Origin: Sinohyriopsis cumingii
Lineage: Eukaryota; Mollusca; Bivalvia; Unionida; Unionidae
Direction of reading: 5' to 3'
NCBI GenBank assembly: GCA_028554795.2
Contig: CM068842.1
Span: 55,883,360-55,947,359 of the forward strand
Length of the DNA: 64,000 nucleotides
The notes under the pieces are model-generated. The model was not told the DNA's origin, made no database searches, and saw only the letters and a list, made by a program, of their open reading frames with translations. Positions within the stretch are counted from its first letter, which is position 1. Each line of letters starts with the position of its first letter. The translations under genes were made by a program, and so were the position numbers. Below are positions 3,130 to 64,000 of this stretch, one piece after another.

Positions 3130-6100
3130 CAATTCTAAAATGGTTTTTGTTTAAATTATTCAAGTTCAAAAATGTGTTTTTAACAAACATAAATGCTGTA
3201 ATAGTCCTAAAATTCTTAGCAGATCAGCTATACATTGATACACATATGCTGGCTAACTTTTATTAGTCTACAAACAGTTGCATTGGAACACTCTTGCAAA
3301 GAAACCTCTCAGGATGTATGGATGGATGAATGGACATGACAGAATCCAGATAAAGAACCAGTACAAGTTCTGGTCCTTTCATCTGACAGTAGACTTGGTG
3401 ACTTTTCACTCGACCATAACATCTAATATTTGGTGCAACTCTGGACGTTTGGAAAACAAATGAATCCAGAAGGCACATTACCATATCAGCTAGCCTGGTT
3501 TGTAGATGCTTTATTTCTTTATCTCGAACTGCCAACAGATCCTCCAACTCATTCACCCTTGCTGACTTCTCTGCAAGTTCCAGACTAACTTGACTGGCCT
3601 GAAACCATTTAGGTAAAAAAATAATGAACAAGATACAGAGACTGCTGCACTACAATATATGGACAAACTTAAAAACGAAAAATGAATTCACAATTAAAGC
3701 AGCCAATGTTGGTACCATAGATGTTATTGTCACATAATAAATTAAAGCAACAAAAGAATTTTACCATTGTATACTCACACTGCTACCCAGGCCAGTTCAA
3801 TATTCCAGGGTTGGCATATACATACCATAATGACTGTAAGTCTTGGGACACCTTAAATTATTTTCAAAAGTTTTTTGTATGACCTATAAATGTTGGGACA
3901 CAAAATTCAAGCAATTTTTTCATGTACTATAGGTCTTGGGACACCTCCAACATTTTTTTCTACTAATTGATCAATGTATTTTCTTGACTGTAACGACATT
4001 AAAAAAAGTGACTATGTTTGTTAAGGGACTATCATCAAAAATTATTCAACGGAAACATAAATTGATTATTGATATCCTCTGTAAGCAAGAGACCCTCAAA
4101 GGGACTGATGCTCTACCAGTTGAAAAGAATTCCATGAATGCAAGATAAGACCATTTCTCCTTTTTTTACTGCTGAGTATTGAAACCATGTTAGATATTCT
4201 TGGGATACTCCAACATATAAAATTTAATGAAACAAAAATATTTTTTTACATGTCTGAGTTCACATGTTCACAAGACAATTTTGAAAGTAGGACAAAATTC
4301 TTTGTCCTGGTTATTGATTCTGAATCTGATATCATGGCCAGAAAATTATTCAAGTTGTCTCAGACAATGTCATGCTACACCCATGTGTTAAGTTTGGTGA
4401 AATTTGTAATATTTGTTTAAAGTTTCTAATGGGTTCATTCAAGGAATTTGTCAGACATGTCCACAAACTGAATTTGATAAAAATACATTGATACCTATGA
4501 CCTTCAAATCAAGGTCAGTATGCTGACTCTCAACTTGTTCATTGGAAGGCATCTAAATACAATGTCTGGTCAAAATCACTTATATATGCACAAGTCACTG
4601 TGGTTGTCAGTCAAAAAAGTAAAAATATGTAAGCAATAACCTCTGACATGACCTTTAAGATAGTCAGGTCTGGTTTTCAAAACTCCTTTACAAAAGTACA
4701 GACCTGTCTGCCCCATTTTTATTTAGAACCAATTAAATATAGCAAGCAGTGCTTTATATAAAACTCCATATCAGTGCCATCATTTATATAAGACTCCATA
4801 TCAGTGCCATCATTCAAGCAAGAGGAGCAGTGACAAGATTTTCAAGATGGCCACTAAACCCCCATGTAAATATGACTTTTTGTTCTACACTAATATCAAA
4901 ATTTTCAAGATGGCCACTAAAACCCCATGTCAATATGACTGTTTGTTCTAGAGTAATGATAAGATTTTCAAGATGGCCACTAAACCCCCACGTCAATATG
5001 ACTTTTTGTTCTACAGTAATGATAAGATTTCCAAGATAGCCACTAAACCCCCATCTCAATATGACATTTTGTTCTACAGTAATGATAAGATTTTCAAGAT
5101 GGCCACTAAACCCCCATGTCAATAAGACATTTTGTTCTGCAGTAATGATGCGATTTTCAAGATGGCCACTAAACCCCATGTCAATATGACTTTTTGTTCT
5201 AGAGTAATGATACGATTTTCAAGATGGCCACTAAACCCCCCATGTCAATATGACTTTTTGTTCTAGAGTAATGACAAGATTTTCAAGATGGCCACTAAAC
5301 CCCATGTAAATATGACTTTTTGTTCTAGAGTAATGATAAGATTTTCAAGATGGCCACTAAACCCCCACGTCAATATGACTTTTTGTTCTACAGTAATGAT
5401 AAGATTTTCAAGATGGCCACTAAACCCCATGTCAATATGACTTTTTGTTCTAGAGTAATGATAAGATTTTCAAGATGGCCACTAAACCCCCACGTCAATA
5501 TGACTTTTTGTTCTACAGTAATGATAAGATTTTCAAGATGGCCACTAAACCCCATGTAAATATGACTTTTTGTTCTACAGTAATAAGATTTTCAAGACGT
5601 CCACTAAACCCCCATGTCAATATGACTTTTTGTTCTACAGTAATAAGATTTTCAAGACGTCCACTAAACCCCATGTAAATATGACTTTTTGTTCTAGAGT
5701 AATGATAAGATTTTCAAGATGGCCACTAAACCCCCATGTCAATATGACTTTTTGTTCTAGAGTAATAATAAGATTTTCAAGATGGCTGCTGTGGTGGCCA
5801 AAATGAACATCAGATTAAAACCATTCTCATTTGGAACAAATTAGACATCACCAGAAATCTTTCAGTGAAAATCCTATGCTGGTATGACCATCCATTCAGG
5901 AGGAGTAGCAATAATAAAATATTCAAGATGGCAACTTTTGTGGCCACATCAGTTATCAAATATGCACCATTGGAAAAGAGAAAATCTTTAAGAAATATCT
6001 ACATGTAGCAAGCACTTTAATTGGCATCCAATTATGTGCAAGGGATGCTTAACTATGCTGGTTACAAGCCAGATTCATTGTGAAGATATATAGTTAATTG

Positions 6101-9100
6101 TCAAGCGCCTCAAGTCTATCCAAACGGAGTTAATGAGACAAACCCATAATGGTTGCATCGCTGTCATCTGAAAATGTACACACCAAAACTGTCCAGGACC
6201 ATAACTTGATCCAAAATGGCACTGTTGAGAAAACCCATAAAATCTACAACTATGCATGTGTGACAAGGCAGAGACAAAACTGAATCAAAATATGTGGAAC
6301 AGTTCCTCAGAGATGCTCCCAGAATTTTATCATAAGGGGGACTTGCCCACCCCCATGTCACACAAAAAGGGGAGAATAGAACAAAAAGGAGGAGGAAGAG
6401 GAAAAGGCCATAGTTCAATATTTACCTAATACTTCAATATCCATCTCTCTTTTTACCTGCTCACTCTGTAAAAGCCCTATTGAAATCAAAATCATTAAAA
6501 GATGTTGCCTCAAGTTGTATACGCAATAGTCTGCTGATTGTTTCTGAGCGTAATCTGTTCCTATTCTGTGTATGAAAATTGTTCTGTACTAAGAACCCAC
6601 TTTCAGTCTGCTGTCTGAAGGGGCATATACACAACTAGTTCAGCCTGCTAGTTCAAAGAAACCAGATGCGAAAACAATTACAATAAAAGATGTCGCTTTA
6701 AGTGCTATGATATTTCAACCAGCTTGACTTGTGTCGTGACATGCACTTTAAGGGTGAATGGCTGAATAAAACTGTATACTGCAAAAAAGTACATGTCCAG
6801 ATCCATGACTTGGAACTAATTTGTGGGAGTTCTCATGCATCACTGCTTTCCAAGTGTAAATTCCATAAAATCTTTGCACGAATCACATGACTGCACACCC
6901 TGGAGCTGGTTCCTGAGATATGCTGGTTACAAGAATCAGCCCGAGTGAAAATGCAATACTGATGGTTATTGTTGTTGTTGTTGTGGGGTTTAACGCCATT
7001 TTTCAGCAAACGATAGGCTATGCATGGCGGCCAGTATTAATGGTGGAGGAAGAACCCGGGAAAACCCCAGGAAGAACCACCGACCCATGAGAAGCTACTG
7101 GCAAGCTTTCTCACATACCCACATTAGCCAAATCCTAGACTCGAACCCACGCAGACAGAGGTGAGATGGCAGTGATCCATAACGGAGAGCGCTTTAGACC
7201 ACTCGGCCACTCGGGGCCCCTTCAATACTGATGGAACAAGTGCATTGTTATCCAGGTGCTGAAGTAATGTTATTGTATGAAAACTACTATTCTTCTTTCT
7301 GTCAAAGCAAACTTATTCTCCAAAATTTATAAGCTTTTTCCTTACCAAAAGTACAAGTCACCCACAAAGTTTGGTCTAGGCATGTGATGCAGAACCATTG
7401 CAGACAAACCATTTGTATTATTTCAGTCAGTGAATCTGAACTTTTACCTTTTAACCCCAACATAAACAGGGTTGTTCCTTATGCCAAATGCAGCCACCAT
7501 AAAGTTTCAAAACCAAGGATATTCGAGAATTTAATTCATTGTAAGAAAGTCATTTTTCATTTCTTCAGTCACAATGACCCTGACCTTTTTATGCAGGAAT
7601 TGATATGGTTCTTCCTGATGTTAAGTGAATGCATCATCCACAAAGTTTAGTAACTATAGTAACTATAGATGGTGGAGAACTCAAATTATTATGCAGAAAT
7701 GAAATTGATAAAAGACAGTGGTTTTGACAGATGGACAACATTTCCACATAACATGCTCCGACGTATTGAGTGTACAAAATGGGTAACAATTTCATAAAAA
7801 TTAAATCTTATGAGACAAAAACCTTTAAAAGGTACATCTACAGTAATACGCAGTTCACTTACAAAATGGCATCCAATTTTGTGTAGGGTTTGCAGCATTA
7901 CGCCGAAATGTGAATGGATGGACAGACAGAACAATGGATGAATGGAACAGGTATTACAGAGCTCTACACCTTGTAGGTGGTTCTAACCATTTCCAAAAAT
8001 TTCATTTTTCACAGATATTCACTAATTTCATATGCAAAAAATTAAAGATGAAAGGGATTCAGCTTCACCTTGGCTCCTTCTTCTAGTCTACTGGAGTCAT
8101 GGCCTTTGATTTTATTCTCAGCCTGCGACAACTTGTGTGTGAGTTCCTCTATCTGGTCAAGATACATGTTTTGCAGTTCCTCTGTTCCTTTCAACTCCTT
8201 TGTCTGTTTCTCTACTAAGGCCTACAAGTGAAGGAAAAAATAATCAAGCAATTTTTCCTTAAAAAAAGATGGTGATCGAAATGGGTGCAGCATTATTAAT
8301 CTGGCCAAAAATTGAACTTTATATGCATACATATATAGTGGGTTTAAAGGCAACATAATACTGGCTATATGGTGTCAGTTGAAAGTGAAATCAGTTGGAT
8401 AATCTGGATTGAAAACCTGATACCAGGATGATCCCCATAAAATCTGATTTTAGCTGATAAAATGATGATTTCAAAAGAGTTGCTCTCTTATTTGTTAGTA
8501 ATGGCAGCTATGTATTACAGACAATGAACAATTTTTATGAAGTTCTGAAAAGTTTCTGATTTTAGATATGTTTCAATAGTGGATCTGAATTGTTTAAAGG
8601 GCTTTAACCCTTTGAGGACACCTTCAACACCAACTCCTTTACTAAACAATTATGCCATTTAAAATCAAACTCTTTACTGAATGACACCTTTCAACACCAA
8701 CACCTTTACTCTGCAATAGCACTTTTTGAGACCAACCCCATAATGATGTCTTTTGATGTAACCTTTTTACTGTGCAATGACACCTTTACACATCAACACC
8801 TATACCGCACAATAATGCCTTTTGATGCAAACCCCTTTACTGCACAATGATACCTTTTGATGCTAACCCTTGTACTACATAATGATACCTTTTGATGCCA
8901 ACCCCTTTACTGCACAATGACACTTTTGCACATCAACCCCTTCACTGCACAATGATACCTTTTGATGCCAACCCTTTTACTGCATAATGACACCTTTTCA
9001 CATCAACACCTTTACAGCAAAATGATGCCTTCTGATGTTAACCCTTTTACTGTGCAATGACACCTTTTCACATCAACCCCTTAACTGTGCAATGATGCCT

Positions 9101-12100
9101 TTTGATAATAACCACTTTGCTGTGCAATGACACCTTTTCACATGAATCCCTTTACTGTGCAATGGCACCTTTTCACAACCACCCTTTAACTGTGCAATGA
9201 CACTTTTTCACATCAACCCTTTAGCTGTGCAATGACACCTTTTGACATCAACCCTTTTACTGTGAAATGACACCTTTTGACATCAACCCTTTAACTGTGC
9301 AATGGCACCTTTTCAAATCAACCCTTTAACTGTGCAATGACACCTTTTCACGTCAACCCTTTTACTGTGCAATGACACCTTTTCACATCAACCCTTTCAC
9401 TGTGCAATGACACCTTTTCACATCAACCCTTTAACTGTGCAATGGCACCTTTTCACATCAACCCTTTAACTGTGCAATGACACCTTTTCATGTCAACCCT
9501 TTTGCTGTACAATGACACCTTTCCACATCAACCCTTTTACTGTACAATGACACCTTTTCACATTACCCTTTTACTGTACAATGACACTTTCTGATGGCTG
9601 TCATGATAAGCCCAATTAGGATACCCCAAAATACCAAATACTATCACTTATACGGCTGAGAAAATGAAGTCGGAATCTAAATATGAAGTAAATCATTAAT
9701 TTAATCTTTGGATTAAAGCAAATGTTCTGTTCAGTCTAAACTACTTACTTAATATCTATCCTGTGTCAACAACAAATTACCCACTTAAAATAAATTTATC
9801 ACTTAGTACAAGAACCAAACTCAAATAGGATGTAAAGTGACTGATTTAATGGATAAATCCTGTGCAAATCAGGTAGTTCAATCTCCCAAGTGCAGTGCAG
9901 GGTTAAAAAATAAAAGTTTCAAGGTTACTCAATTTACTAAAACTGCAGCCATACTTATCATTCACTTACCATAATTTGTAACAGAAGTTATAAAAAATGC
10001 AAAAAGTTGTTTTGGGGCATACTTAAATGATACAAGATTTAAAGAAGCAGATTTTATTTGAAAAGTTTCAAAATGAAGAAAACCCCAATAAATGCAAAGT
10101 ATTAGAATCTTATCTTGTAACGAAAAAGTTTAACCCTGAATTTGTGTATGCCAATAAAATCTCAAACAAGATCTTTCAACCAACCTAAACTCCTTAAGAC
10201 GATTGGTTAAAAATTCCATTATTTAAAGACATTTACAAAAGGGTTGATTTAAATTTTGACAAAAGACTTTCAAAATTGTACGTTGTTGTATAAACAAGGG
10301 CTGAACTTTCTGTAAAATTTGTCTTCATGTAGTTCAATAAACCAGTCCCCAGACCTTTTTTCTGATACATGGGCTCTTATCGTTTCTTAATATATAATAT
10401 TAGGGACGACAATTTCCCATTTCTCCTGCGGTCCATTTAAGATCAGAAACCAATGCTTCAAGCTACAAGTCACTGTGTAATAATTTCGCTCAGAGATTCG
10501 ACATTTTTCTAATCTGCTTTTCCTCCGAATATTCCAACCCCATTTTTCACATATGGACATTTAGGATGGAATGTGGGTGCTTGACAGTACACAGAGCAGT
10601 GTAGATGGAAGTGTGAAGTTAGGATTATGACCAATGTACAAGGCAGTCTGACACCTATCATATTCTCCATTCCATGCTTGTTTTGATAAATAAGAAGTTT
10701 GAAATTATTAGAAATTACAGTTGTGATGTTTTAAATAAGAAAAATAATTAGATTTATGCTCGTAACTACAAAATTTCTATGTAAGTAAACCACGCCAATA
10801 AAAATTCAATATGCCTGTGGAGAGAAAAAATAATGTACAGATGTATAAATTCCCCAAAAGTTGACAAATCAAAAGTAAAAAAAATCCTTAAAAATACAAA
10901 GTAAAAATAATCACACTCATTTAAAAGACTAAAACCTTTCAGTTGAAATGCATTGCAAGATCCATCTGCAGCATACAGGTTTCCTGGTTTCCTTCATTAG
11001 TCTCCTATTATGACACATGCAGCTTCTCTTACCAGGTCTAATCAACATCCCTACAAACAAAGGGACTTCAATTTCTGACTGCGTGCGCTAATATAAGAGA
11101 GTAAAATGCTGATCTTGAAAAAAAAATGGTAATGAAAAAGGTGGGGCATTAATCTGTCAAATGAAATTGGAACATTTTTTAAAAAATTGCAACTGTGTGG
11201 GACTAAGCCCTTGCTGTACAACAGAAAGATGTACTAGTCTGGTGTGTCAGGGTTATCCAATTAGTACAGTCCTGAATCTTGAATTAATCCCATATATGAT
11301 TAACAGGATATCAGTTTGCTTGTTCCTTATTTTCTGAGATATTATTGCCATCTCATTGTCCAGTGCATCTGCATGTTCCCATTTGTTGTAGTTCTAAAAG
11401 CTCATGTATATTTTTGGAGAAAAATTAAATTTGTTGCAAACTGTTACACAATCAAAACTGTTATACAATCAGCACTCACCTTCAGAGATATCACCTCCTC
11501 CTTAAATCTGTCAGCTTGTTCTTTCTCCTTCTTTAGTGCTTTCTCCAGCTCTCTCATTCTGACTTCTTCTTCTTCTGTCCGACTCTATGCAAAAGTACAG
11601 CACGAATATCAGGTTACATCAATCAATAATTTCTCCATTCTTCCAAACCAAATTTATATTTATCCACTCAATACTTTAATAAAATCAACGGAAAGTGTTT
11701 ATATGATAAATAAACTTAATATATTTATGTCATAATGTCTGATGTTAGGAAATGACCACAGTTTGAATTAAGGTAGCCCTCAAACTAAAAGTGTACATCC
11801 TACATTGGGCCAGAAGCAACATTACCAATCTCCATAAAGCCAAATCCCACTGATGTGGCCTATATCTGAATAAAACAAAAGAAAGTCAAATTATTTCTTG
11901 GCTGGTCATAAAGCAATTGCTCAGCCTATCTCATTGCAACATCATATCAACCGTAAACTATTTTGCTCCTTTTCCCTACTTTAAGAAATTTACTTTTCTA
12001 ACGTGAATTGACCATACATTAAAAATTATACCAGATTAAACTTTTAAAAATTCTTATTTCAAATTTCTATTTTCCTTTTATCTATTCTAGTACACATCTA

Positions 12101-15600: not shown

Positions 15601-18600
15601 TAGTGAGCCTTGAGATTTGCAGGTTCGGACTAGATGAGATAAAACCCACATAAGAAAATATACAAGTTGATATGACAATGTTCATACCCCAAATTGCATC
15701 AGAACATACTGAATAGTTCTTGAACTATGCTGGTTTACAAGGAACATCCCACACAAAGCTATTAAGTTAACCATTAACAGTCCTAACTCTATCCAAAATA
15801 AAGTTGATGAGACAAGACCTTTAAAAGACATATCCATGTCTTCGAGACAATATATGTACTAAGACTGCATTAGAATACATTGAATGGTTTTTGAGATGTG
15901 CTGGTTAATGCAACATCCCTTTATCCAAATTTGAGCTGACAAGACAATACCAATAATAGGTACATATAGGTCTATGAAACAGTGTACACAGCAAACTACA
16001 TTAGAAAATGCTGAATGGTTACAAATAACATCCAATGTGTTTTGCTGACTTGATCCAAAACAGAGGTGATGAGACAAACCACATAATAGGTACATCTACT
16101 AGGTCCATGAGTCAATGCACACAACACACTGCATGAGAGCAATACTGAATGGTTCTTGAGCTTAACCACATGTGGTTACTTGGAACTACTGTAACAGATT
16201 TAAATATCATGAAAAAATGTCATAACTGTTTTAAACATACCTGAAAAGACAACACTTTTAAAATGCACATACATTTACAAATTTGTCTACCAAATGGTAT
16301 CTAATTATGTGCAAGGGTTGCAGAGTGTTGGTGGTTACAAGGGTGAACAGACAGACAGATGGACATGTGGAAAAGGTGGTCTCCTACATCTCACAACAGG
16401 TCCATAATCATTAAAAGAAAGATATTCAATATTAGGACCTAAAACATAAAATGAACTGTTGTGGCATTACAAAAATCATCCATAAAGTTTTATCAACTTG
16501 AAAAATGGATAAAGCACACAAATGAAAAAAATCAAGTGATAGGAAGTCCAACTAAAGGACCTGAAATTCAAATCAAATTTCTCAAGCAAAATGGGATATA
16601 ATGAAATGAATGCTCTGAAGAATATGATATGGCAATGTAAAGTTATATTCATGTGCATTTGTTAGAAAATGTTACTTTTTACTTCATATAAGACAGCAAA
16701 TTGGATCACTCAGTGAATATCATGATATCCTTCAAAGAATTTTAGAATTTAAGCAACTTTATTCTGTTTTCAGTGTTTTCTCCAAGATATGCACAGCATA
16801 ATTTGATGTGTTTTTTTAAAAACCGTATCCCATGTTTTGGGCAAGTTCAAAAACCAGTTCATTGCAAATCTTTGTTTCCTTAGCTGATCAAGATTACATC
16901 CTTAATACAGCTCTAAGTGAGAAAATATAAATAATCCAAGCATTAAAATTTAAACTGCTTATGTTTCTTATGCAATTATATCTAATTTTTATTAATGCAG
17001 CCAGCTGAAGGAAGAAAACAAACCCAACTGATATCAAGAATTGTTGTAAACAGCTTTATGCCAAATTTGACTCAATCATTTATCAGACTTCATTTGTTCT
17101 GCATTCATATTTTCCTCTGATCAGTAAATGTAAATATTTGTGATATTTAATAAAAAAGAATTCACATTTTAAGTCAAAAACTGCATTTAAACATGGTGAT
17201 TGTTCGATGATAAATAAATTACCTACACAGCTTACAAACTAAACACAACTAAAATATTGTGTATTGACCAATTGTCAGGTAATATAATTTACTTAGTTTG
17301 CTCTGACACCCCCCGCCCACTTAACTGTCAAAATATCTAAAGCACAGTGGGAAAGGTTTGAGTTTACTCTGATTCCCACCCACGCATACCTGTCAAAACA
17401 TCTAAAATGAGGTGGGAAAAGTCTGAGTTTGCTTTGACACCTACCCCCACTTAACTGTCAAAATATCTAAAGCATGGTGGGAAAGGTCAGAGTTTGCTCT
17501 GATTCCCACCCCTACATAACTGTCAAAACATCTAAAATGAGGTGGGAAAAGTATGAGTTTACTTTGACATCCACCCCCAAGATGGGTGCTGTATCGATCA
17601 TATTGGATGTCAGAATGCCACCACTTTCATTTAAGACCAACTAGACATCATAAAAAGTCTTGCAACAAAAACACCATTCTTAAATAACCATTCATTCTGG
17701 TGGAGGAGCAATAACAAGATTTTCAAGATGGTCATTTTGCTGGCCATACTGGATATCTTGGCAGCACTATTTTCATTTAAGACCAACCACATATCACAGG
17801 AAGTCTTACAGATAAAGTCCCATGTCAATATGACTCCATTCAGAAGGAGTAGCAATAAAAAGATTTTCAAGATGCCTGCCATGGTGGCTCTATTAGATGT
17901 CAGGGCAGCACCATTTACATTAGGGACCAAGAAGATCTTAGGATGAATGTGTGAGTTGTAGCAATCCTAAAAATAGTTTAGGGCAATACAAAACTTGTGT
18001 TAATGGACAGCTGGACAACGGATGGACAACAGGCCATCCTAATAAGTTCTTCTGGTCTATGACCAGTACAGATAATTATGCACAATCACTTACATGCATA
18101 ATTGCCTTACATAAGTGCCTCAAACCCTTTTTAAGTTACATATACTTTGTGAAATGATTGCCTGATACCTTAAGGTGGGCTAGATCCAGTTTGCTGCCTT
18201 AGAAAACCCCATATCCAGTGTAATAGTTTAAGAACATAACTTACTGCATGGTCAACAGGCTTTCAATAAAACAAACATGAGTATTTACACTGAGTATACA
18301 AAAGACAAAAAACATATATATCATAAAAATACTTGGTGCTTTTGGGTCAGTTCAAATGTATGCATTCAGCAACTAAAAATTTTTTACCATATATACTCGC
18401 TTGCAAGATGATCCCAAGTGCAAATTGCACATACCTAGATCTGCCTTCGCAAAATGCACCAGCAGATCTGGGTCTGTGCAGTTTGTTAGGAGTAAACAGT
18501 AGAAAAAACAAGACAGACCATAATCTGCAGGTGCATATTGATATAGTGTATCAGGATCTTTGTTGTTTGCAGTATGACTCAACGTATAAGAGAGTATATA

Positions 18601-21600: not shown

Positions 21601-24600
21601 ACATTAAATTTGTTATTCATAGTGCTCATCAAAATGGTCTCATAAACTGATGATCAGTGTGTGTGTGTGTGTGTGTCTGTGTGTGTGTGTCTGTGTCTGT
21701 GTGTGTGAATAAAACTAATTTTTATTAATAAATTATTCCTTCCAGCAATCAGTCACTGTAGTGCCAGATTTTTTTTAAACTCATGATCACAGTTGAATAT
21801 CTTCTCTTTTGACTTGGACCAAGACTTACAGTATATTGGGGCATGGTGGGAAGAGGAATCATTTTAATAGTAGCAAGTATTACATTATTCAAATTAGCTT
21901 TAACGCACCTCCAAGCATTACATTTTAACATCAGGAATACATTGCCTATTACAACTGCATTACTGAATTTACCAATTAGGAAGAGGCTGATGGCCTAAAA
22001 CAATATAAAAAAAAGTCCAGAAATCACATGTTGTGCTGTCACAACTAGGTCCAGCCAGAAAATTCTATCAATATGGTGCACAAATGGGAGTGATTTAAAA
22101 GGCTCAAGATGCAGCAATATCCCTAACATCATGGGCTTTAATTCTCATGAGAGCAGATCCCTCTCTGAAAGGGTGTAATAAGCTCTCTTGATAGTAAGGA
22201 CAATCCAACTGTAAACAGTGGACACTGAATTATATCAGAGGAACTCTTGATAAGGAGAAAGAGACAATTCCAAACTTCCTTTCTCCTTTTAGAGAAAGCC
22301 AAATCAATCACAAATTGGACAAAAGGGTCTATCCAGCAAAGATAGGACTGACATTATGAATTACAATAGAGAGAGAGAGAGAGAGAGGGGCTGTTGAAAG
22401 CAGATGAGTCTTAGCCAGAAACTTCTGGCTGGCAAAGAGAAGCTGAATCATAGTTACTGATGAACTGTAAACAACTCTTTTCCACACAAAAGGCATCAAT
22501 CCTCATTGGTGACAAAATGGAGGAGGAGGAAGAGGAAGACTGTCTTAAAGGCAATGTTCTTGAAGGACATGAAAGTTCATTCCATCTAGGCATTAATCAG
22601 TCTAAAATTCAATGGCAGAACCCTCACAGAACTTACGAGTATTATCAAGTTCTGCCCTATTGCCATTAACGATAGATACACAATATTCTCATTCTTCAAG
22701 AAAATCTACAACTGCAGTTAATGGGAGACATGTGTAAGAGCATTATAACAATTCATTAAGTGTCTTGACACATGCATAAGAATATTATAACAATTCATTA
22801 AGTGTCTTGACACATGCGTAAGAGCATTATAACAATTCATTAAGTGTTTTGACACATGGGTAAGAGCATTATAACAATTCATTAACTCATTCGGCCCCAG
22901 CACTGTTTTCAGTATCTCTGCTGATAAGCCTCAAAAGCACAAAGCTGTGTCTAGCTGCTTGTGCCCCATAGTTTTTACCTGCCTGAAAACATCGTGCACA
23001 TGCATTCACTCTTACGTTAATTTCTCTTCTTATATCCAAACAAAATCCATGAAAATTTCACCATTTATTTCAAAAGAATTTGTCAACACATTGATGTAAT
23101 TATTTCCCTATTTGTAGAAGTCTTTCACGACTTATTTATACAGTATTTACAAACTTATGTGCAACGTTTATCCGCAAGAACTCCGTCATCATCGCTGTCA
23201 GCATCATCACCTTCGGACGATTCAATCTCAGAAACTTATATGTCCAAATCTAAATCTCACAAAATATTCAACTGCTGAACATATCTTTCCTCAGCTTGCT
23301 CAATAATTTCACGATCAAACCTGAGAAACTCCACATTTTTGCTCTCATCAAAAATCACTCTTCCGTCCGCCATCATTTACGATTTTTCATGAACAGAACA
23401 CGTGTAGTTAAACCGCTCTCAAACTTTAGCCTTTTGCTTCTGAACAATTAAAATTTCCACAAATGAAAGTAAAATCATTTCTGATTGGTTTAATAGTTGT
23501 TTAGTTCTTGGAATAAACCACTTCTAACCAATCAGAGACATTGTATCTAACACACATTCATCACGCCTGGAGACGGGATCGGCCAATGAATGCAGTAAAC
23601 AATTCACGACTACAGGCGGGATCAGCCAATGAATGCAGAAACCGGATCACGCCTACAGACGGGATCGGGGCCGAATGAGTTAAGTGTCTTGACACATGTG
23701 TAAGAGCATTATAACAATTCATTAAGTGTCTTGACACATGTGTAAGAGCATTATAACAATTAAGTGTCTTGACACATGTGTAAGAGCATTATAACAATTC
23801 ATTAAGTGTCTTGACACATGTGTAAGAGCATTATAGACAATAGAAAATGAAGAAGATGTCCTATATGTTGGATATGACAAAAAATCAAACAGGAATTCTG
23901 TTCTTTTCTTTTCACCTTCTGAGTACTGAGTGGAACAGTGAATATTTTATGATTTATTTGGTCCTGATTAAATGACAAGCATGACTATTTCTCCATTTAC
24001 AGTACCCCGTTCTAGTGCTGCATTTTCCTAGTTAACTCTCCTCCCCTGGACCAATCATACACTGTATATGATATAGTATAAAATCTGACTATAATTATCA
24101 AATCTGTACTAATATTTATACCTCAGTCAAACTTGTCCCAACAGTCATATTGATATAGTAATCACCTGGTTTGCAACAAATATTCCAATTATTCCCAGGC
24201 AAATTTTTTATATAATTTTTTTTAGCTATCTCTGATGAAAAAGGTAAATTTTTGAAGAGAGAGATCAGTTACCCCACATTTCACTGCGTTCAGAGGATTA
24301 TTCAATATTTACAAAAATGGTCTGCAAGTTTTACACGTTACTAACAAAAGCCACAGCAAGCTTTTTTTCATTCCCTATTATCATGAGCCTTTCACGTAAG
24401 CCAACTGCTTTTTGGTCTTTGGGATCTAAGCATCTGGTTAATCCAGACACTGTTTTAAGTTTGAATGGCTGTTAATAGGCCTAATTCTAAAAGTCGGCCA
24501 ACAAAGAGCCTGTCCTCTGTTTCACAGTCACAGGTAAGCTTTCTATTAGTAGCTAAATAGTGCTTTGTTGTGGTGGATGAAACAATTCTAAACTCAATAA

Positions 24601-52400: not shown

Positions 52401-55400
52401 TGCTGGCTACCATTTTCGTTTAGAACCAACTAGATATCTCAATGGGTACTTTGGTGAAAACCCCATATAGATAGGGAAATCAATTCTGGAGGAACAGCAA
52501 TAACAAGATTTTCAAGATGACCAAACTGGATCTTAGATCAACACCATTTTCCTTTAGAATCAACTAGACAAGATAAGAAGTCTTCTAAAAAAAAAAAATT
52601 CAAATGACTTTCCACCAAAATGGAGTCACTATAAGATTTTCCAGATGGCCACTGTCATCATGAGAAGTGTTCCAGTGAAAACCACATGGTAATGTGAATT
52701 TCCATTCAGAAGGAGTAGCAGTATCAAAATTTTCAAGATGACAACTTGTAGTGGCCATAATGGATGTCAAATCAGTACCATTTTCATTTAGAATCAACTA
52801 GAATCAACCATTGTTGAAAACCATCCATTCAAAAGGCATAGCAATATCAAGATTTTCAAGATGGCCAATGTAGCAGCCATACTGGAGGTCTCAACAGTAC
52901 CATTTTCATTATGGATAAACTAGATAGCATAAGATGTCTTCTGGTGAAGTTGATGTGACTTTTCCCAGGAGGAGAAGTTATAAGAAAGTTTTCAAGATCG
53001 TAGTCATGGTGGACATAAAGGATGGCAGATTGGCACCATTTTCTTTTAGGACCAACTAAATATTACAATAAGTTCTTTAGTGAAAACACCCCGATAATGT
53101 TACCATGTATTCAAGATGGCCAATGTGGCGGCCAAATATTAAGTAATGCCATAAGTAACAGTTTTATTATGCAGGCATTCGGCATGAAAAACATGCAGAA
53201 TAAAGTGTCTTATGTACTCCTGTAAAGTTAGTCAGGTTCACTGACCAAGTCCAGTTGACCTCAAACTCACACAAGTCAATTTCCAGATCTGGGCATTATG
53301 ATCATGTTATTTATGTCGCTTCTTTTCTGTAAGTGAATGTCATTTCAATAATTATACAGTCAAATTGTATTTGCCTCTTACAATTCTATTTTTTATATTT
53401 ATTTACAATTTACTGAACATGCTTTACTGGTCTATGATCTGCTGAGCTAAAAATGAACTAGATAATGACATGTTGAGAACATTAATCATGCAAGCAACCG
53501 GCTGAAACAGCATTATTTTAACTAATAATTATGGGGTTATTTTTAAGCTCTTAATTAAAACCTCTGCATAGATATTGGTTTCAGTTATTCACAAAAAAAA
53601 ATCAGTAAAATGAAAAAGACAGACAGAAATAACGAAAGAAAAATTCCAACCAGATTATTAAAGCATGAATCACTGCACTGAAAAATTAAAGAAATTTCTT
53701 TTATGTGCACTAAAAAAACAAAATGAAAGCTCAAAGTTATTTACCTGCGATAAAAGGAACAACCTTTATACTTATACACCACTGCAATGCAACTGTATTA
53801 CAAATTATGATATACAGATAGCATGTGGCTTTGTGAAGTTATTTCATGGTATAATAAATATATCCAATTTTTTATTTAAAAAAAATTTATTTATACATGT
53901 CACTGCACTAAAACAGACTAAAATTCATAAGTGTAAAATATAATCCCTTTTTTCAATAAATATTTCTTCAAAAAAACTGTTGCTATCAATTTTATTTTTC
54001 CATTTTAAGTGTACATTTTAAGTTTAAGACTAGATCTAGTCTACAATTTTCTCTACTGCTGGAATACGCAGAAGTTGTGTATTAAAACACTTCATCAAAT
54101 GTAAAGAATGATAGTGCTAACAAATACTGCATATTAAATGGACTCAATGCAGATTTCAGAATTTTTGAACATCATCATTTCAATATGTATGATTCATATC
54201 CAGATCTCATATTCTGGTCATGTTTGTCTGGGTTCAAGATCGTGATCTGGAAAATAGTCTACAAAACCAATTAAATTTAAAAATTATGAAGACAACAACA
54301 ATATTACATAGGATCTGTATTTCTTATCATTACTTTTTTTCCAGACCACACTGGTAAAGGTCAACATAATCAGCTGCTTCATGTTGTTGTGGGTCACCTT
54401 CCTTAATGTGACTCTTCAATATTTATCTACACTCATCTTAATATTCCGTTGGATCATGATTTATGCTGAAGAAATCTCCAAAATTTAATTAGAAACAAAA
54501 AACGTCTTACTTATGAAATGGCAATCAAAATTTGAATTTTGAGTTTTGTTTCAAGAAAAAGATGTTATTTTAGAAATATTGTAAAATATACTTCCTAGGC
54601 TCATACAGCAATAATACTCTAAGTGGTGAGCTAACAACAGTGTTCCATTTTCTCTTTGCTAGGAAAGAGTGCAAATGAGAACACATATGACATATATATA
54701 TATATCTGTTAGATGGTTACAAAAAGTGTTTTTTGTAAAAAAAACATCAAATACATTCTTGACTGTACTGGTAGTTTGATGACAGAAGAAGTGGAAATCT
54801 AGCAGCATTTGAGGTTTTGGATGAACAAAATGTTTAGAAACAAAATTAACTGTTTATACCAGTCCTTCATTATATTGATATGTTTGTGTGTGTTTATATG
54901 TATATATTTACTGCAGTGTACATAAAGTGAATATAGCACAGTTCATAACAAATACTCTTACGAAGACTTGACTTTATTGCTTAATTTGGGAGCCAAACTT
55001 GACCCTTACCCAACCTTGTTCTTTTTCCTAATAAAAGTTTTGATTTGTTTTTTTTTTTTTGCTTTTGCACTTCATTTATTTATGAGGAGTGATCCTTCCT
55101 TGGCAAATGTCCTTGATGTGACCATGATCAAAATGAAGTCAGATATTTTGGGAGTAGCATCAGTAGAGCTGCATGTACCTGATTATTGAGCGCCGTTACA
55201 CCCAGTCTTACCCGGCTACGAGACACACTGGATGCTGTTGAACTCAGTGAGCTGACGGACTCCTGGCTGCCACTCTGTTCCCTTGACAAGCGAGAACTTG
55301 TCATTGATGTACGTGCTTGTGGACTGACCCCTGTACTTCCTGTTATTTTGGTCACTTTGTGTACTGGTGCAAACAGACCGTACCTGGGCTTGCATTCAAA

Positions 55401-58400
55401 ATATCTACCAAAAGAGACAAGTAATGCTTTGAAGTACTAATGAAATATGCAGTAACATTACCACAAAGCATAAACATTACCACAATGCAATGACAATACC
55501 ACAAAGCATCCATATTACCATAAAGCACTAACGTTAGCACAAAACACTGACACTATCACAAAGAATTTACATTACCACAAAGATAAAACACTCAAAATAA
55601 TAATGTCACCAAATACTAATATAATCACACCATATCAATTTCCTATGCAATCTAATACTATCCATTAACAGACAACTGTTGTACTGTAAGGACTTTATAG
55701 GTAAATAAAAGAATAGCTGACCTCCTAATAAAACAAAGTTGTTGTCGTTTTTGGAGTTAATGATGTTTTGCAGTACAAGACAGGCTATATATGGAGGTTA
55801 ATAGATAATGGTGGAGTAAGAACCCAGGAGAACCCCGGTAAGAACCAATGAGGAGAATCCTGGTAAGAACCATTGACCCGCAGGAAGCTACTGGCAATCT
55901 TTCTCACATACCCACAATAGCTGAGTCTGAGGCTTCAACTCATGTGGACAGAAGTTCCACAGAACATTGTTTAGTCTCATCTGAAAACCATGATATGGTT
56001 CATGTATGACTTTCAAATGCATGAACAACAGTGAAGGAGCTAGGCTTGCAAAAACCACAGGGACATCCAAATGAAAAGAAAACCATGTACAGCAATATCA
56101 AAACTGGTTCTTAATCGTACAATCAAGTGAAACACAGTATGAAACAACTAACATCAACATAATCCCACAAATGCTTACATTTTTAACATTGGTTATACAA
56201 CAAAACCTGGTAAACAAGATCAGATCAGTATGCCAATAAGCAACATTTGATTGTGATTACATGCCAATATGATAAGCAGTAATCATTTTTAACTATCAGT
56301 CCAATAAGAAATTTTGAAATTGCAACTACCTCTTGTCTTCTAATTACATGATAAAAAGAAAGCAAAATCAACAATGCAGAACTATGCGACTTAGCTTTGC
56401 ATCTGTCTCTAGAACCAATGACAAAAATAAGCACGTTCACATTTTTTCTTTAGTAAAAAGTAAAAACATTCTTTCATCTATGTGCTATTCTTGGTTCTTT
56501 TGAAAAAATGGCTAATCATGCTCCCAATGTCTTAAATCCCGTCTTATGGATGCCATTAATATATGTTGTATATCATTACAGATATTGTGTCTCATTAAGA
56601 TATAAATTGTGTTTCATTAATTCATTAATTCATATTGTATATTTTAAAAAACTGCATATTGGAGTGAGGTGCTCATAATGAAGTGACCTGTTGATATCCA
56701 GCATTAAAAAAAATACAATCACATCATCAAATCTGGAAGGGGAACAATAATGGCAACTAAGTGATACCCTGGTGGACATAAACAGGACTATAAAACAATT
56801 GTCACTCAAAAGGACTGCAAAGAATATCCAGGAATTCAAGAAAAGATCAACTCTTCTTGCATGCTGAAACCATCTTTGAAATTTCTGAGTAGTAAGATTT
56901 TCAAATTATTCACTTTGGCTTTCATACTGGACATTAGATTAAGTCCATTACCATTTCAGACAAAGCAGACACCATTAGAAGGCTAATGATAAAAAACCCA
57001 TTCTAATATGAACATCCATTCCAAAGACTTAGTGACAAAATTTTTAATGTCTGCTGTAGCAGACATACTGCATGTCTTCAGAGCATAATTTTCATTCATG
57101 ACCAACTATATCATATGCATTTTGGTTGGTTGATTGCTATGGTTTAAGAACCATTTTTCAGTGGTATCATCATATAGGTAGCAGATAAAAAGACAGGAAT
57201 TTACATCAGTACTACTAGTGGTTGTATAATATTTCTGCACTTTCTGGTTTATAAATATAAACTGTTACCTTTTCCCTGCCACAGCACCATCATTTTTACC
57301 CATGGAGTCATCAAGCTCAACACCAGCCCAGTCACCTTTTGCAAAATCAGTGACACCAATAAAACGCAGAGTTCCTGGTTTTGTGCCACTGACTAAAACA
57401 CGGTCTCCAACCTTCAAGTTGTATCTAGGTCCAGCAGCTGGGGTGGACATGGACTGAAAGAGATTGCACAATTAGAAAAAACCAAGTTCAAGATAAAAAT
57501 ACAACCCAATTAAAGTAATCTAAAACCAAAGTAGCTGAAGACAACAGATTATCAAAGTAAACATCAGTTATGTTGAGCAACTTATTCACATAATTATAAA
57601 TTCATGTTCACATATAATGGCATTCATATATCTTCTATCTAAATTATGGTCAAGCATGAACACAAATGCAACCCGATTAAACAACATTGTTGCCACAGAG
57701 ATCTGGCTTCAGAATTCACATTCTCCAGACTTTTGCAGTAAATTTTCTTAACGTAAATAACCTTTCCACAAGAGTCATCTCTGGATCAACAGCCACAGGC
57801 TTTGAGCATTATTGGTACTTTTTTTTACACTTTTAATATTCTGTATGACACTCTCAAGGTATTTTTATAATTCTATGCATTTTACCTGTAATTATTAAAA
57901 AATTTCACCTGGTTGTCTTCATGAAAAACATGAGATCAATGATCCATTACAAAACTCATCTCTAATGAGCTTTTAAAGAAGATTTCAGGAGGCATTGCAA
58001 GGACTATTTATCATGCCAGAAACAAATTCTGACTAAAGCAATCTTGATCATGAAATGTTGGCTGCTTTTACAAGTTACAAAAGACAATTTTTAAATAAAA
58101 ACAATAAAGAAAATTATTTTGTATGATATTAAATTAGATGTAGTATAACGAGTAGATAAAAAAGAGATTAAATGTTGCTTGCTTTTTTTATTAAAAAAAA
58201 CTTGTTCTTAAAATCATCATTAGAAACTATTATCACTGTCCACCCTTTAAATCAGAATCTATTATCACTGTCCACCCCTTTAATTAGAATCTATTATCAC
58301 CGTCTACCCCTTTAATTAGAATCTATTATCATTGTCTACCCCTTTAATGATATTGTTGACCCCAGAAACCAGATTTTACTCTGCGAAAGTTACAGGCTTT

Positions 58401-62467: not shown

Positions 62468-64000
62468 CTGCAGTAAAAAAAAGTTTTGATGAAATCCAGT
62501 TGAAGATAAATTTGGATAAGCATGCATTTTAACTAAGGGATTCTTAGGATACATGTAAAACAGTTAATTTCTGACATGTGAATGCAATTGTTTGATACGG
62601 TGGGTGGGGAAAAATATAACAAGCCTCCAAATCAATTCCATACATACCATAAATGAAATACAGTGTGACCCCGCTATAACAGGGTAGTTGAGAGCCATAA
62701 AAGCTGACCGTGTTATAGACCAAACCATATTAAAAGCAAACAGGTCAGTTAGATGAAGAACATGATGCATGTACTCCCAAAAATTTGCGGGGGGGGGGCA
62801 ATAAATGCGGGCGGTAAAATACGTGCTTCAGTGGCACAGTTACCATCTTAAATTGATGCATATTAAATGAGAAATACACCTGCAGTGAAAACAGAGAAGA
62901 CATATATAATATTTTACTTTATTTGGAGAACCACAAATTGGTACATATATGTGAATATCGTTTATATATACATGTCTAATATATAGCATGAATAGAGTAT
63001 CAAAACCATGTACTCACCCGTGAATCTCATCATATACACTGAACCCACAAGTGATTCCATTGAAAATATGCACACACAGATTTAAAATATTCAATAATTT
63101 TGTCACAGATCATTTTGGTCTGATTTCAGTGGAAAAACATAGCACAATCATGTAACAAATGATGAAGCACATTTACTTTTCAGGATGTCCCAAGTTGGTA
63201 AAAGTTAGTTTGCGTTTTAAGCCCCCGTTGGTACATTCATAAGAATACATTTGGTCCCTGCAAAAAGGAAACTTTCAAAGCACAGTTACTGTGTTCTAAT
63301 CACATTGGAAAATGCAAAAATCCATCAGATTCCATTACTTTTATTTAAGTCTGGTACTGATGTCCTTTGAAGAAAAGTTCTTTGCTTTTATTGAAGATTG
63401 TAGTAGGCTTTCTTTGATGAAGGGTACATGCATTATTGAAGTCGCCGGTAAAGGACAGCTTTGGAGAACCAAACAAATGCCCATTTCATATTGTGGTGGT
63501 AACATTAAATAATTGTATTCCATGATTGAGACTGAATTTTGTTTCAGTTGCCGAGGATGTTTTCATAACAATCGGTGCTTCAAAGGTAATCTTTTTCATT
63601 TGAAAATTCTGCAAACTATTTTATCTGGGTACATTTTTTAAAAGAAATTGGCTGTCATTTGGTCTATTTAAGTTACTGTTCCTTCCTGCCTATTGAATAA
63701 ACCAATGAATAAGATTGTTTTGTTTGTTTTTTGTTACATTTGTGGTTGCAGCGAGATGCTGTCTTCCACGCATGCATCAAAAATTTAACAATGGGGTGTT
63801 CCGTAGGACTTAATTCTGACTGAAAAGAAGAGGAATTTTACTTATCATCCACATACAAATGTCGGTCTCTGTAAATATATTAATTACTAGAGAGCTGCCA
63901 AAAAATTTGATGAAAGATAGATTGCGAGATAATGCCTCATCCAGTTGATCTCCGCTACCAGAAATGTCAACAACCAAAAAGTGGATATCTCACAACATAC
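62468..64000 (-). other. CLIP intron upstream of exon A (continues past window)
   Basis: Almost wholly occupied by the second pogo-like element from 62661 on. No N-terminal CLIP exon is visible here. Confidence 0.7.
62661..64000 (-). mobile_element. pogo/Tigger-like element, copy 2 (continues past window)
   Basis: Begins with TIR CAGTGTGACCCCGCTATAAC after TA (62659-62660). Its reverse complement matches copy 1 from the right TIR back to about 35015, most bases identical with small indels. The visible part is 1340 bases; the other TIR should lie about 0.6 kb past 64000. The plus strand keeps the short frame 63312-63512 (FEEKFFAFIEDC, CIIEVAGKGQLWR, PISYCGGNIK). Confidence 0.85.

Follow-up and report, generated by a model that had tools for sequence, protein, structure and literature searches.

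The window, by which we mean the whole 64,000-bp stretch of Sinohyriopsis cumingii DNA analyzed here, carries a CAP-Gly domain on its minus strand (61938-62525; Pfam, 1e-25). A second partial CAP-Gly match (55131-55436, E 0.0016) and a candidate exon with a weak coiled-coil match (3266-3649) each lay below the cut-off. A miniature inverted-repeat transposable element (MITE) of 794 bp occupies 22886-23679 and would lie within an intron of the CAP-Gly gene, putatively a CLIP-like gene. The element opens at 22886 with CTCATTCGGCCCC and closes at 23679 with the exact reverse complement, and it is overlapped by no open frame longer than 61 codons. It is embedded in a 42-bp tandem repeat. The window is rich in minisatellites in general (arrays of 63, 35, 65, 42, 33 and 32 bp, e.g. 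4831-5786, 8760-9587 and 17295-17579), and arrays with a period of 6 bp or more make up 3946 of its 64,000 bp. The features at the insertion are as follows.

22721..22885, no strand: host minisatellite to the left of the element, with three complete 42-bp units after a truncated first one; its last bases are the TTAA copy at 22882-22885
22882..22885, no strand: left TTAA target-site copy, read in the sequence and compared across copies
22886..22898, no strand: terminal inverted repeat CTCATTCGGCCCC, counterpart of the 3' (right) end in the full-length relatives
22886..23169, minus strand: homology to the 3' end of the full-length element, covering positions 1-284 of the MITE consensus (~83-85% identity to the full-length copy L049)
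23170..23679, minus strand: homology to the 5' end of the full-length element, taking in its left end, 5' UTR and first codons and covering positions 285-794 of the MITE consensus (86% identity to L049)
23257..23376, minus strand: decayed transposase gene start, 39 codons to the first stop (translation, tblastn, DNA alignment)
23560..23668, minus strand: three subterminal 43-bp units with GATCCCGYCT, a candidate transposase-binding array (repeat finding, comparison with the piggyBat left end)
23657-23666, 23614-23623 and 23571-23580, minus strand: GATCCCGYCT sites (motif positions)
23667..23679, no strand: terminal inverted repeat GGGGCCGAATGAG, counterpart of the left end in the full-length relatives
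23680..23683, no strand: right TTAA target-site copy, read in the sequence and compared across copies
23680..23841, no strand: host minisatellite to the right of the element, with three units followed by a broken fourth and 4 bp missing from one unit (repeat finding, unit comparison)

The initial annotation of this DNA had described a 794-bp element within a 42-bp tandem repeat, bounded by perfect inverted ends of 13 bp and flanked by TTAA at either end, and had proposed that the array keeps the text of the empty site. The coordinates and the text of this description are correct, and the empty site could be rebuilt. Tandem Repeats Finder placed the 42-bp array on each side of the element (22728-22885 and 23680-23841), and when the flanks were joined through one TTAA, they formed a single array of 7.6 units with the unit boundary in register. 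The rejoined 20-mer CAATTCATTAAGTGTCTTGA has four further exact occurrences in the window, every one of them within the same 42-bp array, and the minisatellite serves in this way as an internal control for the empty site. The related idea that the array records the orientation of target choice is not supported, since TTAA is palindromic and a single insertion shows no preference.

To place the element in a family, we searched the genome (2.9 Gb, 1138 contigs) with the window copy and scored the best 40 of 1117 candidates. All 40, the window copy included, were full or nearly full length (782-797 bp) with 94-100% identity, and 38 of them had TTAA on both sides, the right side reading TTAG in L006 and TTAT in L013. 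The exact word TTAACTCATTCGGCCCC (TTAA plus tip) occurred 712 times in the genome, while its reversed control occurred 0 times; this number of matches is far beyond chance. Among the 40 copies, the distance to the consensus was 1.1-3.5% (0.5-2.5% outside CpG) and the mean pairwise distance was 4.9%, an age range that is biased young because the search kept the copies most like the one in the window; the entire family is therefore older than their divergence. A second sample, taken on C2, comprised 20 regions in listing order, which cover 21 of the 22 C2 tip sites at the head of the list (all but L037), and the 794-bp element was present in six of the 20 regions at 84-96% identity to the consensus. 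The element is thus, as MITEs are, short, devoid of a complete gene and present in many similar copies of uniform length. Its insertion in the window is an ordinary one, one of many genome copies of a further piggyBac-type MITE.

The assignment to piggyBac comes from full-length relatives in the same genome. At least 124 genomic matches to the Pfam family DDE_Tnp_1_7 (PF13843) were found, and both MITE ends were matched in five of the 30 loci that were fetched from them, namely L048, L049, L058 and L060, which are 2468 bp each, and L065, which is 2578 bp. These five copies are 0.5-2.2% apart, and four of the five have TTAA on both sides. The open frame of L049 spans 574 codons and matches DDE_Tnp_1_7 at 1.4e-85; against solved structures, just two distinct sequences scored below E 0.01, piggyBat (9c0f, 9.8e-44) and piggyBac (6x67, 9.6e-37). 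Its residues D245, D323 and D430 align with D237, D309 and D413 (the aligned chain is numbered 6 higher), which the available text of PMC11707139 gives as the catalytic triad of piggyBat. The full-length relative with a piggyBac transposase, for which the initial annotation had suggested looking, is therefore present, and its triad is DDD.

Aligned to L049, the right part of the MITE (510 bp) shows 86% identity over the 5' end of the full-length copy, and the left part (284 bp) shows 83-85% over its 3' end. Since the MITE and the full-length element share both ends, the MITE corresponds to the full-length element minus its middle. Read on the minus strand, the MITE contains the decayed start of a gene, including an acidic stretch: the DNA homology of the remnant extends beyond the first stop into this stretch, and the consensus version of the gene start matches L060 (tblastn, E 1e-16). 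A Pfam search with the translated remnant alone returned no family. We are highly confident that the window element is a non-autonomous MITE of the piggyBac superfamily, derived by internal deletion from a transposase-encoding element of ~2.5 kb. A structural difference was seen among the relatives, in that a piece of ~125 bp (MITE consensus ~97-219) is tandemly doubled before the right end in L048, L049, L058 and L060 and is matched once in the MITE and in L065.

An origin from another superfamily that targets TTAA, Kolobok or Sola3, has to be weighed against this assignment. The target of Sola3 is TTAA. The T2-MITE/Kolobok elements of Xenopus also target TTAA, so that TTAA by itself is not discriminating, but they start with purine-purine tips, against CT here, and belong to another transposase superfamily, according to the available text of PMC6004289. 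Elements that encode a piggyBac transposase are matched by both ends of the MITE and by its gene remnant. The CT tips and this homology led us to reject Kolobok, and Sola3 is unlikely because the homology to a piggyBac element extends to both ends, so that we regard an origin outside piggyBac as extremely improbable. The ends agree with the piggyBac assignment in their length: the perfect inverted repeats of 13 bp fall inside the 12-19 bp range given for the superfamily in the available part of PMC2872659. The superfamily tips are described there and in PMC10813416, likewise available in part, as C-rich, e.g. CC[C/T]T or CCCAT. The MITE tip, CTCAT, is one base off CCCAT, and the young full-length relatives have CCCTT.

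The two tips of the five full-length copies are unlike each other, with the CCCTTTAAGCCCC type at the left and CTCATTCAGCCCC at the right. The left tips of L048, L049, L058, L060 and L065 are all of the CCCTTTAAG type, that of L048 reading CCCCTTAAG, and these unlike ends would fit a MITE lineage that made its inverted ends symmetric by copying the right tip onto the left end. A broader sample argues against such a change. We collected 19 left ends (L071-L089) from 92 protein matches; five of them are the same places as the five full-length copies, and for the older copies mostly the left end alone was read. Eight of the 19 have the CCCTTTAAG type (L071-L074, L076-L078, L088), ten have the CTCATTCGG type, in which at most two or three bases are changed (L075, L079-L083, L085-L087, L089), and one, L084, has lost its tip. 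The CTCATTCGG count includes L080 (CCCATTTGG) and L085, which was assigned by eye as it is misaligned in the tree input. In the unrooted tree, all eight ends of the CCCTTTAAG type are confined to one side of a split with a support of 0.999. Symmetrization within the MITE was dropped as very improbable: other transposase-type copies share the tip of the MITE.

Within the transposon family itself, the tip has changed, the young full-length clade having CCCTTTAAG and the more diverged copies CTCATTCGG. The CTCATTCGG type looks older because it is carried by the more diverged copies, although the tree is unrooted. The youngest full-length copies have the other left tip (CCCTTTAAG), and their transposase may be unable to move this MITE. 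A direct parent was not found among the 19 transposase-type left ends, the nearest being L087 with 88.6% identity to the MITE consensus. In the unrooted tree, the MITE consensus and six of the 40 copies group together on a long stem of 0.056, and none of the 19 left ends falls inside this MITE branch.

The minisatellite differs on the two sides of the element. As had been noted before, the units on the right are the more uniform ones: they show 0 substitutions in 152 bp and one 4-bp deletion, while the three full units on the left have 4, 1 and 2 differences, respectively. The deletion lies in the unit at 23726-23763, which is without CATT beside its TTAA, between two ATT words, and replication slippage is a simple explanation of the missing bases. 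The initial annotation had gone further and regarded the turnover of the array as datable relative to the jump. One reading in this direction is that the array grew on the right after the insertion, with the element as a barrier, and that left and right have been evolving apart since. There are 21 differences between the window copy and the consensus, ten of them private to this copy among the 40, and the number of substitutions expected in the right-hand units in the absence of any turnover ranges from 1.9 to 4.0, depending on how many of these 21 differences post-date the insertion. If all of them do, the observed 0 against 4.0 expected (P 0.018) speaks for growth on the right; with only the ten private differences, 1.9 are expected (P 0.15), and a right side that was uniform already before the insertion accounts for the pattern as well. 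The case for expansion after the insertion comes, moreover, from a single allele. We consider such growth possible but somewhat doubtful, and the proposed dating is underpowered, as a second allele would be needed before the array could date its turnover. A genome search with the left flank (886-base query) found no second full copy of it among the best 40 of 395 candidates, and hence, as far as this search goes, the assembly showed neither a second allele nor an empty one. Apart from the right half of the array, the matches to the left flank had 66-81% identity and covered bases 82-566 of the query, a region that looks like an old dispersed repeat.

Of the 40 rejoined sites, five (L001, L012, L024, L036 and L039) fall within arrays, with periods of 30-118 bp. 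In four of the five, the unit identity across the junction was 0.77-0.95; in L024 (118-bp unit), the ungapped identity was 0.27 and the array was called by Tandem Repeats Finder alone. A preference of the family for tandem arrays as targets would make the setting in the window a special one, as the initial annotation implied, and the result turns on the choice of background. In arrays lie 17 of the 525 TTAAs of the window and 51 of 302 at the other loci, which gives 68 of 827 when pooled, a background that is non-random in that the 302 adjoin transposon copies. Against the window's own background, five of 40 is more than expected (P 0.009, or 0.037 when the window copy is left out), but against the pooled background it is not (P 0.23, or P 0.40 for four of 39 without the window copy). 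The C2 sample speaks against a preference as well, because only one of its six copies of the 794-bp type spans an array (L094), and the array at L102 stops 2 bp short of the junction; the array-spanning entry for L093 was not used, as its ends had been wrongly found. A preference for arrays is, on these figures, unlikely. In the literature on insertion of transposons or MITEs into minisatellites at TTAA, the titles and abstract openings yielded nothing on this element or on such use of an array, which does not prove absence.

The C2 regions also revealed a second MITE family of ~610 bp, present in 13 of the 20 (L091-L093, L095, L097-L100, L103, L104, L106, L107 and L109; L101 was left out of both families in this count). 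All that the ~610-bp and 794-bp families have in common is ~31 bp of left end and 15 bp of right end, and because these ends are shared, the same transposases probably moved both. At L110:53-1423, two copies of the 610-bp MITE surround a 131-bp spacer, with TTAA at all four borders. The spacer stands beside a 610-bp MITE at four C2 places (L110, L093, L098 and L109), where it is 92-97% identical to the L093 spacer, and this repeated occurrence suggests that the composite of two 610-bp MITEs and spacer may move as a whole unit. Same-strand tip pairs that lie 750 and 760 bp apart in C1 may be further composites.

Cut-and-paste transposition with duplication of TTAA is established for piggyBac. 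The simplest history of the window element begins with a ~2.5-kb element that lost most of its gene, leaving ~510 bp with the left end and the gene start and ~284 bp of the right end. The transposase of full-length relatives would then bind the ends of the MITE in trans. Its likely contacts would be the three sites at the left end, where GATCCCGYCT is found at 14, 57 and 100 bp from the end in both the MITE and L049, with a 43-bp period and nowhere else in either. These sites are likely candidates for transposase-binding sites. The MITE would have been excised and joined into one TTAA of the pre-existing 42-bp minisatellite, with the TTAA being duplicated in the process.

In piggyBac of Trichoplusia ni, the inverted ends are 13 bp long. 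This element resembles the family described here in its superfamily, its TTAA target, its short inverted ends and its transposase (E 9.6e-37 to 6x67). It differs in that its ends bear identical 19-bp palindromic sequences in an asymmetric arrangement, according to the available text of PMC11707139, a feature that was compared here by a palindrome scan alone. The CMITEs of Acropora corals are likewise TTAA-flanked, piggyBac-linked MITEs with ends of 13-14 bp, and they occur in tandem arrays and an assembled composite; they are only ~100 bp long and have tips such as CCCTTT and CCCCTC (PMC2872659, in its available part, the comparison being one of descriptions).

piggyBat of Myotis lucifugus resembles the family in its TTAA target, its transposase (E 9.8e-44) and its aligned catalytic triad. 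As described in the available text of PMC11707139, the left end of piggyBat carries the motif GCGGGA at 11-16, 55-60 and 99-104 inside a footprint of ~120 bp, each copy being followed by an imperfect palindrome, and its right end has truncated or reversed motif copies only, without such a palindrome. The left-end motif is thus present three times in both systems, 44 bp apart there and 43 bp apart here, and the right ends are without the triple array in both. The differences are that the motif reads GATCCCGYCT here, that a scan of the MITE left end over 140 bp from its tip listed no imperfect palindrome, and that the right end of piggyBat retains truncated and reversed motif copies; the element here is, moreover, a MITE. 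We offer as a speculation, and one that is fairly unlikely to hold in full, that a left end with three sites spaced by 43-44 bp is an ancient architecture common to piggyBat and this lineage and obligatory for the MITEs, and that the youngest lineage switched its tip from CTCATTCGG to CCCTTTAAG, maybe stranding the older MITEs. A genome with two left-tip types and at least two MITE families that share their ends bears on which end features the transposase needs, and the likeness in spacing to the biochemically mapped left end of piggyBat makes this question testable.
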